In this document: positions 25,486 through 32,097 of the stretch, piece after piece
How positions within the stretch are numbered: position 1 is the first letter of the stretch
Layout: each line of letters begins with the position of its first letter
Source of the DNA: Pseudohongiella sp.
Lineage (GTDB): Bacteria; Pseudomonadota; Gammaproteobacteria; Pseudomonadales; Pseudohongiellaceae
DNA: 64,000 bases
Direction of reading: 5' to 3'
Assembly: GCF_011050365.1 (NCBI RefSeq)
Contig: NZ_DRFV01000017.1
Span: 186,001-250,000 of the forward strand
Translations under genes and position numbers: made by a program
The notes under the pieces: model-generated
Databases searched by the model: none
What the model was told of the DNA's origin: nothing
The model's input: the letters and a program-made list of their open reading frames with translations, nothing else

Positions 25486-25662
25486 ATGTACATACCACCA
25501 TCAACACTGATCTTTTTGGTTTTCACCTATCTACTGTTTCTGTTCAGTGTCGACTGGGCACTGGATGTGGATGGCGCCTGGTATCGACCGTTTGTGATCT
25601 GTTTTGCCGTCATCGCACTGGCCGCCTGGGCCTACCGGGAACAGAACGCCGATGAGCTTTGA
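25486..25662 (+). CDS. cbrX: CbrX-like small membrane protein
   Basis: A 58-residue protein with one or two hydrophobic segments (LIFLVFTYLLFLFSVDWAL and FVICFAVIALAAWAY) and a charged C terminus REQNADEL. It immediately precedes and overlaps cbrA by 11 bp. In Pseudomonas a small membrane-type ORF, cbrX, occupies this exact place and is reported to couple translation with cbrA. I assign the name by position and character rather than by clear sequence identity. Start is ATG 25486, after the gluQ stop. Confidence 0.7.
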   Translation: MYIPPSTLIFLVFTYLLFLFSVDWALDVDGAWYRPFVICFAVIALAAWAYREQNADEL

Positions 25663-28579
25663 ACTCAGCACCCTGTTTGCCATCGGGATCGGCTATCTCG
25701 CCATCCTGTTTGGCATCGCCTTTATTACTGAAAAGGGCTGGATTCCCGAGAGAATTGTCCGTCATCCTGTGGTGTATGTATTGTCGCTGGGTGTTTTCGC
25801 CAGTGTCTGGTCCTATTTTGCCGCCACCGGCAATGCATTCCGGGACGGCTTTGGTTATCTGGCACCGTTTATCGGAATTTCACTGGCGTTTCTGCTTTCC
25901 CCCATCTTCCTGCGCCCGATTCTGAACCTGACCAAAACCTACCAGCTCAGCTCCCTGGCCGACCTGCTGGCATTTCGCTACCGCAGCCCGTGGGCGGGTA
26001 CCCTGACCACGCTGGTGATGATGATGGGTGTAATGCCACTGTTGTCCCTGCAAATCCAGGCCGTTGCCAATATTGTCGGCCTGCTTTCGCCCGACGCATC
26101 ACAAACCACATTGGCATTGAGTTTTTGTATTCTGATCACACTGTTCGCCATCTTTTTTGGTACCGGCAAAGGCTCTGGCCGGGAACGTCACGAAGGCCTG
26201 GTCATGACAATTGCCTTCGAATCGCTGGTCAAGCTGGTTGCCCTGTTGCTGGTCGGTGGTTTTGCCGTGTACACCGGCTTTGGCAGCATGGACGCCATGG
26301 ATCAGTGGCTACGGGAGCAGCCGGAGCTGCTGCAACAACTGAAAGAACCGGCGCCGCCGGGCACCTTCCAGGTCATGGTGCTGGTTTTTTTCACCGCCGC
26401 GGTCGCCACCCCGCAAATGTTTTACATGACTTTTCATGAAAACAACCATCCACGGGCGCTGACCATCGCCAGCTGGGGTTTGCCGCTGTACTTCCTGCTG
26501 CTCAGCCTGCCAGTACTGCCCATCCTGTGGGCCGGACTCAAAGCCGGTAGCGCCAATCCCATGGAATATTTCACCGTCACACTGGGCATGGACTACGGCT
26601 CGGAGCTGTTCACGCTGATCGGCTTTGTTGGCGGTCTGTCTGCCGCCAGCGGCCTGATAATTGTCATCACTCTGGCGCTGTCCACCATGTGCCTGAACCA
26701 CCTGATACTGCCGGTATGGCAGCCCACCGCCAAGCAGGACATTTACCGCTGGCTGTTGTGGAAACGGCGCCTGTTGATTACCGCGCTGATCTGGGGCGGA
26801 TTTCTGTTCTATTACATGCCGAGCGACGACCAGAGCATTCGGGCAGTCAGCAACATCGGGCTGATCGGCAGCCTGCAATTCCTGCCCGCCATTATTGCAC
26901 TGCTGTACTGGCCACGTGGCAACAAGAAAGGGTTTATGGCCGGACTGGCAGTTGGCACTGCCATCTGGGTCATATTCCTGGTGCTGCCGGTCATCGCCAG
27001 CACCAATCTGGTCACACTGGGCAATATGGACACGCGCGGCATTGTGGCACTGTCACTGGTGTGCAATGTCGCCATGTTCATGCTGGTGTCGGTGATGACG
27101 CGCAGCTCCAAGGAAGAGCGCATTTCGGCTGACATCTGCTCCGTTGACAATCTGCGCCGCCAACGGCGCGCCGGATTAAGAGCCGCATCACCGGAAGAAT
27201 TCATCACTCAGCTCACCAAACCGCTGGGCGAGCGCACCGCCACCCGCGAAGTCGTGCAGGCCTTGCGCGATCTTAATATGGAGCGACAGGACACGCGCCC
27301 CCACTCTTTGCGGCTGTTGCGCAGCCGCCTGGAGGCCAATCTTTCCGGCCTGCTGGGACCCGCCATAGCGCATGATCTGATAGACCGGTTTCTGCCATTC
27401 TCCTCCAACAGCGAACCGGGCACCACGGATGTCACGACCATTGAGAGCCGCATCGAAGCCTACCGCAGCAACCTGTCCGGCATGGCCGCGGACCTGGACA
27501 ACCTGCGACGTTATCACCGGCAGATTCTGATGGAACTGCCGCTGGGCGTGTGCTCGCTAGGCCCCGAAGACCAGATCGTGATGTGGAATCACGCCATGGA
27601 GACCCTGACCGGCCTCAACAGCGACGAGGCCGTGGGCCTGCACATCAGCGAAATCGGCCAACCCTGGTACAGCCTGATCAACAACTTTCGCAGCGCCGAA
27701 TCAGCACATCTGCACAAGCAGGCCGTGACGGTTCAGGGCAGTAAGCGTTATATCAGTCTGCACAAGGCCGTTATCGAGAAGTCCGCCAGTTTGCGCATCC
27801 GTCAGGACGGCGTCATTGTATTGCTGGAGGACCTTACCGAAACCGAATTGCTGGAAGAGGAGCTGGCGCACAGTGAGCGACTGGCGTCCATTGGCCGGCT
27901 GGCGGCCGGTGTCGCCCACGAGATAGGCAATCCAATCACCGGCATCGCCTGCCTGGCGCAGAATATTCGCGACGAAACGCAAAATGATGAGCTGCGCACC
28001 ATGGCGCGACAGATCATCGAGCAGACTGACCGGACATCAAGGATCGTGCAGTCGCTGGTCAATTTTGCGCACAGCGGCAGTCACAATAAAACCGAGCGTC
28101 GCCGGGAAGTGGTCAGTATCGCTGAAAGCATTGATGAAGCGATCACCCTGGTCTCCCTGAATAAAAAAGGCAAAGAAATACGTTTCGATATCCAGTGTGC
28201 TGCCGATGCCCGCCTGCTGGGAGATTCACAGCAACTGTTGCAGATCCTGGTCAACCTCATTAATAACGCCCGCGATGCCAGTCCGCCGGACAGCACCATC
28301 AAAATTGAATGCGAGCGTATCGCAGCATCTGTGCAGGTCAGCGTCAGCGATGAAGGCACGGGCATCCCCGACGATCTCAAGGATCGGGTTTTTGAGCCAT
28401 TTTTCACCACCAAGGAACCCGGGGACGGCACCGGACTGGGTCTTGCCCTGGTCTACAGCCTGGTTGAAAACCTCGACGGACATATTGATATAATGAAGGC
28501 ATCACAGCGCCAGGACTACCCCGGAACACGAGTAATCCTGAGTTTTCCCTGTTATGATGAAAACACGCTTGAAGGCTGA
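25652..28579 (+). CDS. cbrA: Transporter-fused sensor histidine kinase CbrA
   Basis: A 975-residue sensor of the CbrAB carbon/nitrogen-balance system. The first ~490 residues form an SLC5/SSS-like transporter domain with about 13 helices. A linker and a PAS domain follow (about 620-730, [20 protein letters not shown]). Next are the HisKA dimerisation domain with phosphoaccepting His756 in GVAHEIGNP and a HATPase domain ([11 protein letters not shown]-box, [27 protein letters not shown]). This architecture and ~980-residue length match Pseudomonas CbrA. ATG 25652 overlaps cbrX. cbrB follows 36 bp downstream. In Pseudomonas the pair controls amino-acid, sugar and carboxylate use. Confidence 0.95.
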
Positions 28580-28615
28580 TTTAATCATTCCGGCCTCCAG
28601 TAATTGAGTACACAC

Positions 28616-30007
28616 ATGACTGCACAGCACAAAGTTCTGGTTGTAGAGGATGAACAGGTAATCCGCACCGCACTTCGCCGGTTGCTGGAGCGCCACGAGT
28701 ATCAGGTCAGCGAAGCCGGCTCCGTGAAAGAGGCGCTTGAGCAACTGGGCGACAAACAGTTTGATATCGTCATCAGTGACCTGAGGCTGCCTGGCGCACC
28801 CGGTACCGACCTGATCAAGGCGACCCGGACACCGGTGCTGATCATGACCAGTTACTCCAGCCTGCGCTCGGCAATCGACTCCATGAAAATGGGAGCCGTT
28901 GACTACATTCCCAAACCGTTTGAACACGAGGAAATGCTGCAGGCTGTTGCCCGCATCATCAAGGAAAACGCCGACCGGCAACCCGCCGCCAAGTCGCACG
29001 AGCCTCCGCCTGAACCGCCCGTGCCGGGCATGATCGGCAGCTGTCCGCAAATGATGGAACTGTTCCGCCGTATCCGAAAAGTCGCACAAACCAACTCCAC
29101 TGTGTTGATCAATGGAGAGTCGGGCACCGGCAAGGAACTGGTCGCCCGTGCGATTCATCGATTGAGTGATCGGCACGAGTCGGAAATGATTTCCGTCAAT
29201 TGTGCGGCAATCCCGGAAAACCTGATTGAATCGGAGCTTTTCGGGCATGAAAAAGGCGCTTTCACCGGCGCCACCGCGAACCGCACCGGACTCGTTGAAG
29301 CCGCCAGCGGGAGCACGCTGTTTCTGGATGAAATCGGTGAATTGCCGCTTGAGGCCCAGGCGCGTTTGCTGAGAGTTCTGCAGGAAAGCGAAATACGCAA
29401 GGTAGGCTCGGTACAATCACGCAAGGTGGATGTGCGCCTGGTGGTTGCAACCCACCGGGACCTCAAACAACTGGTTATTGATGGTGAATTCCGCGAAGAC
29501 CTGTACTACCGGATCAACGTTATGGCCTTGCTGCTGCCGCCACTGAAAGAGCGCGGTAACGATATTCTGGAGCTAGCTGACGCCATACTGGTGCGGACCT
29601 GCAAACGCCTGAAGTCCCCCATGCTGCGCTTTACCGAGGAGGCCACGCAGGCGATCTCGACCTACCCCTGGCCGGGCAATGTCAGAGAGCTTGAGAACGC
29701 AATCGAGCGGGCCGTGGTGCTGGCTGAAAATGAAGATATCGGTACCGAATTGCTGGCAATCGACCTGAGTGGCAGCAAACGTGCCATTCGCTCACTGCTG
29801 GAGCGCACCATAGATGCGTCGGATACCGGTGACGAGGGCGACGCTGCGGAAGAGCTCTCGCTGGAAGACTATTTCCAGAAATTTGTGCTGGAGCATCAGG
29901 ACCAGATGAATGAAACCCAACTTGCGAAAAAGCTGGGCATCAGCCGCAAATGTCTTTGGGAGCGACGTCAGCGTTTCGGCCTCCCCCGCAAAAAGAAACA
30001 GGCCTAG
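28616..30007 (+). CDS. cbrB: Sigma-54-dependent response regulator CbrB
   Basis: CbrB is the NtrC-family activator paired with CbrA. The 463-residue protein has a receiver domain with phosphoacceptor Asp55 (VISDLRLPG) and a receiver Lys in PKPFEHEEM. The AAA+ domain has Walker A GESGTGKE (167-174), the sigma-54-contacting GAFTGA loop (214-219) and Walker B TLFLDEIGEL. A C-terminal Fis-type HTH reads TQLAKKLGISRKCLWERRQRFGL. ATG 28616 is chosen; a TTG at 28604 would add four residues. Sigma-54 itself is encoded at 6.0 kb. Directly downstream is a sigma-54 promoter driving a CrcZ-like RNA, the best-known CbrB target in Pseudomonas. Confidence 0.96.
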   Translation: MTAQHKVLVVEDEQVIRTALRRLLERHEYQVSEAGSVKEALEQLGDKQFDIVISDLRLPGAPGTDLIKATRTPVLIMTSYSSLRSAIDSMKMGAVDYIPKPFEHEEMLQAVARIIKENADRQPAAKSHEPPPEPPVPGMIGSCPQMMELFRRIRKVAQTNSTVLINGESGTGKELVARAIHRLSDRHESEMISVNCAAIPENLIESELFGHEKGAFTGATANRTGLVEAASGSTLFLDEIGELPLEAQARLLRVLQESEIRKVGSVQSRKVDVRLVVATHRDLKQLVIDGEFREDLYYRINVMALLLPPLKERGNDILELADAILVRTCKRLKSPMLRFTEEATQAISTYPWPGNVRELENAIERAVVLAENEDIGTELLAIDLSGSKRAIRSLLERTIDASDTGDEGDAAEELSLEDYFQKFVLEHQDQMNETQLAKKLGISRKCLWERRQRFGLPRKKKQA

Positions 30008-30025: not shown

Positions 30026-30072
30026 TGTTACCGATACCCATCTACCCACGGCACAAGAGAAATTTGGTAACA
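30026..30072. promoter_or_regulatory. Inverted repeat suited to a CbrB upstream activating site
   Basis: TGTTACC (30026-30032) and GGTAACA (30066-30072) form a perfect inverted repeat separated by 33 bases. They lie about 144 and 104 bp upstream of the predicted +1 of the small RNA, where sigma-54 activators usually bind. Assignment to CbrB is by context. Confidence 0.5.
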
Positions 30073-30146: not shown

Positions 30147-30162
30147 TGGCACGCTTCCTGCT
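30147..30162 (+). promoter_or_regulatory. Sigma-54 (-24/-12) promoter
   Basis: TGGCACGCTTCCTGCT has the GG (30148-30149) and GC (30160-30161) elements separated by exactly ten bases, and a full TGGCACG upstream block. The -12 block is CTGC rather than TTGC. Predicted +1 is about 30173, at the beginning of the A-rich small RNA. An inverted repeat lies 75-120 bp upstream, where an activator would bind. Confidence 0.85.
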
Positions 30163-30171
30163 CTATATACC

Positions 30172-30432
30172 GCAATAACAATAAAAACAGACAACAATAA
30201 TAACGCTTGATAACAATAAAAATGGCATCCTGAATGGGTGCAAAATAACAACAACAATAATCAAAATGGGCAAGTAGGCATGGGTCGGCAAGTTGCTGAT
30301 TGCTACTGGTACTGTTTAGAGCTCAGGCATTAAATTTGGTGCCCCCTGAACAACAACAAAAAGAAATAATAATAAAAATAATCAAATACCTTCCTTGCGG
30401 GGGGGTCGAGTCACCCCCCAGAGCATTTCTCT
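30172..30432 (+). ncRNA. crcZ: CrcZ-like Hfq/Crc-titrating small RNA
   Basis: This approximately 260-base untranslated stretch lies between cbrB and pcnB, the location of crcZ in Pseudomonas. It begins just after a sigma-54 promoter and has five separate A-rich clusters containing multiple AANAANAA motifs: 30174-30188, 30191-30204, 30212-30222, 30242-30267 and 30349-30386. Between them are short structured parts, for example GGCATCC/GGGTGC around 30224-30241. It ends near a strong GC hairpin at 30399-30419. In Pseudomonas, CrcZ carries five or six such motifs and sequesters Hfq with Crc, relieving catabolite repression. Primary sequence conservation with CrcZ was not tested. No credible ORF covers the stretch. 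The 3' end is uncertain because the T tract after the hairpin is weak. Confidence 0.8.
30399..30419 (+). terminator. GC-rich hairpin at the end of the CrcZ-like RNA
   Basis: Seven G residues (30399-30405) and six C residues (30414-30419) pair, with T30406-A30413 extending the stem to seven base pairs and leaving a six-base loop. Downstream is CATTTCTCTCT rather than a clean T run. It is probably a terminator or 3' protective hairpin for the small RNA; partial read-through into pcnB is possible. Confidence 0.6.
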
Positions 30433-30467
30433 CTGCAAATCCCTGCAAATCTCTGCAAAGCTCTGCC
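30431..30467. repeat. 10-bp tandem repeats before pcnB
   Basis: Units CTCTGCAAAT, CCCTGCAAAT, CTCTGCAAAG and the partial CTCTGCC follow in direct tandem. They lie between the GC hairpin of the small RNA and the pcnB gene, 83 bp before its start. No ORF or hairpin explains them. Confidence 0.9.
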
Positions 30468-30549
30468 ACTTCAGTGTATTATTAGGTCTTATGCCATTGT
30501 CTTCACGACAGCGGTGCCGAATGCTATGTGAACGGATACAGAATATCTG

Positions 30550-32097
30550 ATGTTAAAAAAGCTTACCCGACTGCTTTTCGGCAAAACCAGCAAGGTTGAC
30601 GCTGAACCTGCCAAGCCAGCGGCTCCTGTCAAGCCTGCCGATGCCCGTAACAGCGGCCAGGCAAGCAGATCAAGACAGCCCCGGAAAACCACACAACAGT
30701 CAGGCCGCCACCGCCAGTCATCCGATCCGCGCGACGACCTGCGTCGAATGAACCTCGATATCGACGTCAACAAGGTTACCGTTGTCCCCCGCGAAAAACA
30801 CAATATCTCGCGCAAGGACATTTCTGCCAGCGCTCTGAAAGTCCTGTACCGGCTCAACGACGCCGGTTTCCAGGCATTTCTGGTGGGCGGCGGCGTGCGG
30901 GACCTGCTGCTTGACGGCCACCCCAAGGACTTTGATATTTCAACCAATGCCACGCCTGAGGAAGTGCGAGATCTGTTCCGCAACTCCCGTGTCATTGGCC
31001 GCCGTTTCAAGATTGTCCATGTGCGCTACGGCCGGGAAATTATTGAGGTAACAACGTTTCGCGCGCACCATGAAATAGAAACCGAGGTCACTGAGGGAGA
31101 ATCGCGCAAACACATCAAGCACCTTGATTCTGCGCACTCCAGCACTGGCATGATTTTACGCGACAACGTTTACGGCAATATCGCCGAAGATGCTGTGCGT
31201 CGTGACTTCACGGTGAATGCCCTGTATTACACAACAAACCAGTTCATGATTCTGGATTTTGTTAACGGCCTGCCCGACATAGAACAACGCCTGATCCGCA
31301 TGATCGGTGATCCGGAAACCCGCTACCGCGAAGACCCGGTTCGAATCCTGCGCGCGATCAGACTGGCAGCCAAACTCGATTTCGGCATTGAGCAGCACAC
31401 CGAAGAACCCATCCCGCGTCTGGCAACGCTGCTGGAATCGATTTCTTCCGCCCGCCTGTTCGATGAAACCGTCAAACTGTTTACCAATGGCAGCGCAGAG
31501 AAAACCTTTGCCCTGCTCCGTCAGTACAAGGTCGCTGACTATTTGTTCCGGCCAACGCTGGAATGTCTGCAGGATGACGACAATGATATCGACAGCAAGC
31601 TGTTAACACTGGCGCTGCGCAATACCGATAATCGCCTGGCCGACGGCAAGTCAGTTACCCCCGCTTTTCTGTACGCCGCTCTGTTGTGGCCACCGCTGCA
31701 GGATGCCATTCGCCAGGACTGTGGCAACAAGGTGCCGACACTGGGCGTGTTGCAGGAATGTGCCGGTGACGTCATTGTTGAGCAACTGAAATACACCGCC
31801 ATTCCCAAGCGCTTCACGGCAATGATGCGGGAGATCTGGGAGCTGCAGTTGCGCCTGAGCCCGCGCAACCGGCGCAGCGTTGAGATCGCGTTCACGCACC
31901 CCCGCTTCCGCGCGGCATACGACTTCCTGTTATTGCGCGAGGCAGCCGGTGAGCAGCTCAACGGCCTGGGTGATTGGTGGACCCGCTTTCAGCAGGTGGA
32001 TAGCGACGCCCAGAATGCGATGATCGATGCCCTGCAAGGTCCCAAGACACCGCGCAAACGTCGGCGTAAACCACGCAAACCGGAGTCAACTGACTGA
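30550..32097 (+). CDS. pcnB: Poly(A) polymerase I PcnB
   Basis: PcnB adds poly(A) tails to RNA 3' ends, promoting decay by exonucleases. The 515-residue protein has a basic N-terminal extension and the nucleotidyltransferase core with FLVGGGVRDLLLDG (about residues 111-124). The catalytic carboxylates are in PKDFDISTNAT, followed by the VRRDFTVNALYY block and YREDPVRILRAIRLAAKL. The C terminus is basic (PRKRRRKPRKPE), as is typical. In Pseudomonas and relatives it follows cbrB/crcZ and precedes folK; here it overlaps (TGATG, 32095-32099) a deoxynucleoside kinase gene instead. Confidence 0.96.
   Translation: MLKKLTRLLFGKTSKVDAEPAKPAAPVKPADARNSGQASRSRQPRKTTQQSGRHRQSSDPRDDLRRMNLDIDVNKVTVVPREKHNISRKDISASALKVLYRLNDAGFQAFLVGGGVRDLLLDGHPKDFDISTNATPEEVRDLFRNSRVIGRRFKIVHVRYGREIIEVTTFRAHHEIETEVTEGESRKHIKHLDSAHSSTGMILRDNVYGNIAEDAVRRDFTVNALYYTTNQFMILDFVNGLPDIEQRLIRMIGDPETRYREDPVRILRAIRLAAKLDFGIEQHTEEPIPRLATLLESISSARLFDETVKLFTNGSAEKTFALLRQYKVADYLFRPTLECLQDDDNDIDSKLLTLALRNTDNRLADGKSVTPAFLYAALLWPPLQDAIRQDCGNKVPTLGVLQECAGDVIVEQLKYTAIPKRFTAMMREIWELQLRLSPRNRRSVEIAFTHPRFRAAYDFLLLREAAGEQLNGLGDWWTRFQQVDSDAQNAMIDALQGPKTPRKRRRKPRKPESTD

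Follow-up and report, generated by a model that had tools for sequence, protein, structure and literature searches.

The sponge RNAs RsmY/RsmZ and CsrB carry a GGA motif. CrcZ of Pseudomonas aeruginosa, which has been compared with them, contains six A-rich motifs (PMC4063720). In this organism Hfq acts as the repressor and is titrated by CrcZ via its distal face (PMC4063720), with Crc stabilising the repressive complex (PMC8266614, PMC5815094). P. putida and Azotobacter vinelandii possess a second such RNA under CbrB, CrcY (PMC6292655, PMC6296734). The published CbrB consensus, TGTTAC-N12-14-GTAACA-N15-19-GTAACA, comprises the subsites F1, R1 and R2 (PMC8871633), which are also given in PMC6296734. 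CbrAB has been described as unique to Pseudomonadaceae and, with its crcZ, as exclusive to Pseudomonas and Azotobacter, both in a 2022 review (PMC8871633) and in a 2018 study (PMC6296734). Among the literature matches listed, we found no report of CrcZ outside Pseudomonadaceae. The passages of papers naming both CrcZ and Halomonas discuss CrcZ for P. putida or Stutzerimonas only, and the passage on cbrAB transcripts in a marine community (PMC5073097) mentions no RNA.

How does the locus from Pseudohongiella compare? The window, that is the whole stretch of 64 kb analysed here (G000:C17:186001-250000), stems from a genome of 3.63 Mb. In it, the gap between the end of cbrB (30007) and the start of pcnB (30550) contains, in this order, an enhancer, a sigma-54 box, six AANAANAA runs and a G/C hairpin, all on the plus strand, as are cbrX, cbrA, cbrB and pcnB. 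The gene order dksA-gluQ-(cbrX)-cbrA-cbrB-RNA-pcnB proposed in the initial annotation is indeed preserved, with cbrX, a 58-aa ORF at 25486-25662 that overlaps the start of cbrA, being named by the position of its translation only. The sensor kinase CbrA (25652-28579) has HisKA and HATPase domains and is 52% identical to its counterpart in G122 over query residues 2-971 of 975. CbrB (28604-30007), a sigma-54-dependent response regulator, has Response_reg and Sigma54_activat domains with a GAFTGA motif at residue 218, and is 84-88% identical to proteins on Pseudohongiella-labelled contigs and up to 96% to proteins on metagenome contigs. The downstream neighbour pcnB (30550-32097) matches TIGR01942 over its cut-off and is followed by genes for a deoxynucleoside kinase, panB, panC and acs. 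The kinase gene (PF01712; 32097-32744), between pcnB and panB, takes the place that in Pseudomonas is held by folK. Seven small ORFs of at least 20 aa overlap the cbrB-pcnB gap.

The sigma-54 promoter, TGGCACGCTTCCTGCT at 30147-30162, has the exact GG-N10-GC spacing previously noted for it, and from this box transcription is predicted to start near 30173. Upstream, overlooked at first, lies a CbrB-type site, TGTTAC-N35-GTAACA at 30026-30072, which occurs a single time in the 64-kb window. Its F1-type subsite TGTTAC (30026-30031) and R2-type subsite GTAACA (30067-30072) are exact and rightly spaced, lie 121 and 80 nt upstream of the sigma-54 box, and are invariant in 23 of 23 rows of alignment A2, which includes the window and was chosen from regions with the enhancer. 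The 35 nt between them fall within the 33-39 nt summed from the published consensus (PMC8871633). Near the place of R1, CTACCCA at 30042-30048 probably represents a degenerate R1-like subsite; as CTACnCA it is largely conserved in alignment A2. The distances are nearly equal to those in G122, whose family (f21) we take as Pseudomonadaceae and which has a CrcZ match exceeding the Rfam cut-off: at its locus L056, F1 lies 124 nt and R2 82 nt upstream of the sigma-54 box. In its place between cbrB and pcnB, its sigma-54 promoter and the geometry of F1 and R2, the Pseudohongiella locus thus resembles that of CrcZ (RF01675) in Pseudomonas and Azotobacter.

Following the promoter, the six runs are AATAACAATAAAAA (30174-30187), AACAATAATAA (30193-30203), AACAATAAAAA (30212-30222), AATAACAACAACAATAA (30244-30260), AACAACAACAAAAAGAA (30349-30365; absent from roughly half of the rows of the alignment) and AATAATAATAAAAATAA (30365-30381). 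As the last two abut, they form five blocks, which agrees with the five motif clusters of the initial annotation, and five segments of the gap conform to (ARN)n with n of at least 4. In the predicted fold the runs are mostly unpaired, with a mean pairing probability of 0.00-0.09 in five of them and 0.22 in run 5, as compared to 0.41 across the whole RNA. Like RsmY/RsmZ and CsrB, an RNA of this kind would titrate a translational repressor through repeated motifs (a comparison drawn in PMC4063720), but the motif here is AAN and the repressor Hfq, instead of RsmA/CsrA. Could these runs merely be part of an A-rich, low-complexity spacer without function? The gap is AT-rich, with 35% G+C in 30163-30396. 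However, these 234 nt hold 19 of the 39 AANAANAA on the plus strand of the window, no other non-overlapping stretch of that length on either strand has more than 2, and none of 2000 dinucleotide shuffles reaches 19 (mean 2.4, maximum 11). As, in addition, the AAN phase is conserved and the geometry of promoter and enhancer is steady across genera, we regard a functionless spacer as extremely improbable.

This conservation is seen most directly upon aligning the cbrB-pcnB gap. Across the rows of A2, A makes up 85% on average at the AA positions of the runs, where 33 of 61 columns are invariant, as compared to 21% at the N positions, where none of 25 columns is invariant and three are nearly so. 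The A-rich clusters are therefore conserved in relatives, as the initial reading of the locus had presupposed, with AA fixed and N drifting, and such a phase-locked AAN pattern is what would be expected if the runs were selected to bind the distal face of Hfq as (ARN)n motifs. On a broader scale, a module consisting of a sigma-54 box followed by A-runs within 5-50 nt, by thresholds of our own, is present downstream of cbrB or a cbrB relative in 64 of 74 regions, compared with 0 of 1480 shuffles and 0 of 74 on the other strand. The 74 regions, which comprise the window, 33 named loci and 40 numbered genomes, are not all distinct, with at least four repeats (L025/L207, L029/L212, L026/L209 and L023/L203) and identical readings for L014 and L016. 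The 33 loci are those used as cbrB regions out of 43, leaving aside L032, which is cut off, and L034 and L036-L043, which are distant; of the 17 regions from other families, 15 had been selected because of an Rfam match. The module was missed in L026, L030 (Parendozoicomonas), L035 (Amphritea), G391, G400, G399, G430, G008, G507 and G508, with G391 and G008 failing by the A-site count only. It extends into further families of the order, including Halomonas litopenaei (L044), with the enhancer half-sites mostly present.

Several loci depart from the common arrangement. A cbrB relative without the downstream A-run module is found in L230 and L231 (G507 and G508), in Parendozoicomonas and in Amphritea. 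Downstream of cbrB, three modules of sigma-54 box and A-runs follow in series in L215 (G259, f39) and two in L223 (G005, f6), which looks like a tandem multiplication of the CrcZ-type RNA. In three f8 genomes (G007, G185, G356), the CrcZ match is located either on a different contig from cbrA or at a distance of roughly 180 kb, so that no linkage of the RNA to cbrAB is seen there.

Is the Pseudohongiella RNA then a CrcZ? The window yields no Rfam match at the gathering threshold, and CrcZ (RF01675) appears in E-value mode only: the covariance search called for by the initial annotation returns a match at 30191-30450 with E 5.7e-11 and 46.8 bits, compared to a gathering score of 95. The earlier suggestion of a primary sequence possibly without relation to known CrcZ is thus not supported, even though the match lies below the Rfam threshold. 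It spans the model end to end, from position 1 to 398, with most of 135 mid-model positions lacking a counterpart, and is the sole CrcZ match in the genome; 14 control genomes have none. Among 390 genomes of the order, 72 have a CrcZ match, 19 of them over the cut-off, under stricter filters by which weak matches are lost. That A-richness alone need not yield a CrcZ match is illustrated by the gap of Halomonas L044, where the module is present with its A-runs, yet no Rfam match at E <= 1 is obtained. A frameshift-element match on the hairpin of the Pseudohongiella RNA was dismissed as weak (E 0.83).

The RNA resembles CrcZ, then, in its five to six A-runs, its 3' G/C hairpin and the end-to-end covariance match, and differs from it in being shorter (260 nt versus a 398-position model, with much of the middle skipped), in its score, in the degenerate R1 and in a genome in which Crc was not found. 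With CrcY it shares the nature of an RNA under CbrB, but unlike in P. putida and A. vinelandii, only one CrcZ match exists here. By the RF01675 gathering score it is no member; by its place between cbrB and pcnB, the sigma-54 motif just upstream and its several (ARN)n motifs, it has the features of one. We therefore class it as a CrcZ-type RNA that is syntenic with crcZ and a non-member by the Rfam threshold. Position, promoter, enhancer, A-run conservation and covariance match all point the same way and give good support to a putative CrcZ-type RNA that is controlled by CbrB and sigma-54 outside Pseudomonadaceae.

The predicted extent of the RNA is 30173-30430. Towards its 3' end, a GC hairpin following the A-rich clusters, as the initial annotation had it, is found at 30399-30419. 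It is part of an element at 30387-30429, TACCTTCCTTGCGGGGGGG...CCCCCC and the following AGAGCATTTC, that shows almost no variation among the 23 rows of A2, a conservation apparently stricter than a plain terminator would need. As the stem hardly varies, covariation is uninformative, with a small covariation term, and the fold of the RNA is not clearly more stable than that of shuffled sequences (z -1.08), of which 28 in 200 reach its stability. Between the hairpin and pcnB, an imperfect tandem repeat with a 10-nt unit like TCTCTGCAAA occupies 30430-30469. The terminator scan found no terminator, the hairpin being without a T-run, which leaves the 3' end uncertain. Together with the start of pcnB on the same strand 120 nt 3' of the hairpin element, this would also fit a regulated 5' leader of pcnB, with read-through past the hairpin, a reading that is compatible with a free RNA. 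However, the predicted RNA end coincides with the near-invariant hairpin element, which aligns to the 3' part of Rfam CrcZ, and the three f8 genomes carry their CrcZ match away from cbrA, so that we consider a pcnB leader quite improbable.

The genome provides most of the expected partners. Besides CbrAB, rpoN is present, and the search for hfq proposed at the outset yielded an Hfq with Y25, L26, I30, L32 and Q52, residues that have been named as belonging to the distal, A-binding face (PMC6422490). The genome contains 44 overlapping AAYAAYAAYAA sites, 7 of them inside the cbrB-pcnB gap. Among 30 such loci listed, none of which is from the gap, a few (L292, L297 and L299) are near translation starts of other genes and are possible Hfq targets.

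A counterpart of Crc, by contrast with CbrAB, RpoN and Hfq, was not found. The genome has four Exo_endo_phos matches, and the one nearest to Crc, L048 (G000:C15), is also the protein that could do the work of Crc if the RNA were an ordinary sponge for Hfq and Crc. It matches P. aeruginosa Crc among the PDB chains with E 1.3e-69 and the Crc profile with 305 bits, but Neisseria NApe fits better (E 2.3e-88). P. aeruginosa Crc has lost two of four nuclease residues (PMC3662782), whereas L048 keeps the whole nuclease site, including CADWNMCH and SDHAP. In a nuclease tree of 50 proteins from 38 genomes, picked mostly for an Rfam CrcZ match, one Crc clade is formed by 31 rows with support 100/99, to which 31 of the 32 Pseudomonadales genomes outside the family contribute one row each and the six inside none (50 of 75 matches were used, with the 25 scoring at most 121.7 bits dropped). 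The sole outside genome without a row in the Crc clade, G115, is also without a full-length CbrA match. The trees disagree on the branching of NApe-type versus Crc rows, and the CbrA tree, which is unrooted, separates the family from the sampled Crc-bearing families.

Gene context gives the same picture. All 31 Crc genes adjoin pyrE and/or rph, and the other nuclease genes examined, L048 among them, have neither in the available flanks, which for many are a few hundred bases on each side. In the Pseudohongiella genome rph and pyrE themselves adjoin, and the 54 nt that separate them contain no gene. Likewise, 30 of 30 family rph-pyrE loci are adjacent without a crc match; these represent the nearest 30 of 127 genomes with a pyrE match, namely 11 of g1, 14 of g146, 3 of g2 and 2 of g147, and thus cover four of the eight genera (all but g3, g143, g144 and g145). 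Searching 137 family genomes with the Crc profile gave matches in 124. All 96 matches of at least 240 bits keep the nuclease residues and none joins the Crc clade in three trees; the remaining ones do not exceed 176 bits or are fragmentary. Of two such fragments below 140 bits, the one in G492 covers the SDH part only and the one in G453 yields no usable reading frame. On the same profile, the 31 Crc proteins, 17 of which were built into it, score 325-427 bits.

What might still speak for L048 as a substitute is the RRKRRE patch at Crc positions 137-142, described as contacting RNA and the dimer partner, which NApe-type proteins from a number of other genera and families retain. Their possession of the patch means, however, that it is not diagnostic of Crc, and L048 is without it, lacking K139 and R140, which are kept by 17 of 17 aligned Crc proteins. 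In addition, five genomes (G201, G384, G030, G063 and G008) have a nuclease-intact relative plus a separate Crc, the relative in G030 being weakly placed. On balance, L048 acting as the Crc of an ordinary Hfq/Crc sponge is unlikely. Among the NApe-type proteins with an intact active site, L085, L086, L087, L089 and L090 carry the RRKRRE patch, which suggests that the patch may predate Crc.

The proposed extension of the CbrAB-CrcZ-Hfq/Crc circuit to this lineage is consequently supported for CbrAB, RpoN and Hfq and not supported for Crc, as neither a Crc-clade protein nor a crc gene at rph-pyrE, that is, a degenerate nuclease beside rph/pyrE, was found in the genome. The initial annotation had counted a missing crc as refuting its proposal. 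We read it instead as a changed mechanism, because CrcZ titrates Hfq itself (PMC4063720). With Hfq as the repressor and Crc as a stabiliser, a CrcZ-type RNA can in principle work without Crc, with a weaker repression to relieve.

From our analysis it is quite probable that a decoy RNA of the CrcZ type, some 260 nt long, is encoded in the gap; it would be a counterpart of Pseudomonas crcZ, syntenic with it though diverged, and would act on Hfq without a canonical Crc. Its transcription, CbrB dependence, Hfq binding, role in derepression and physiology we infer from the sequence. In this scenario, poor carbon supply would lead CbrA to activate CbrB, which would bind the TGTTAC...GTAACA enhancer and drive the sigma-54 promoter at 30147; as no canonical pseudo-nuclease Crc was found, the resulting RNA would act on Hfq alone. 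With more reserve, we lean towards the view that Pseudohongiellaceae run a CbrAB-CrcZ-Hfq carbon circuit without any Crc. Two histories would fit this view, namely a clean loss of Crc from the rph-pyrE interval, or retention by the family of the state before an NApe-type nuclease was recruited as Crc.

While the kind of RNA is known, its occurrence in these families and the apparent lack of Crc are new within the scope of the literature searched. In contrast to the published exclusivity of CbrAB to Pseudomonas and Azotobacter, the CrcZ-type module is now seen in further families of Pseudomonadales. Hfq and Crc, both regarded as targets of sequestration by CrcZ, come apart in a family that has kept the RNA but in which no Crc could be detected, so that Pseudohongiellaceae offer a natural test case for the sufficiency of Hfq by itself. 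The same family bears on how a DNA-repair nuclease turned into a translational co-repressor. If the circuit is truly without Crc, the decoy RNA would have been selected for Hfq alone, and Crc would be a later or dispensable co-repressor.
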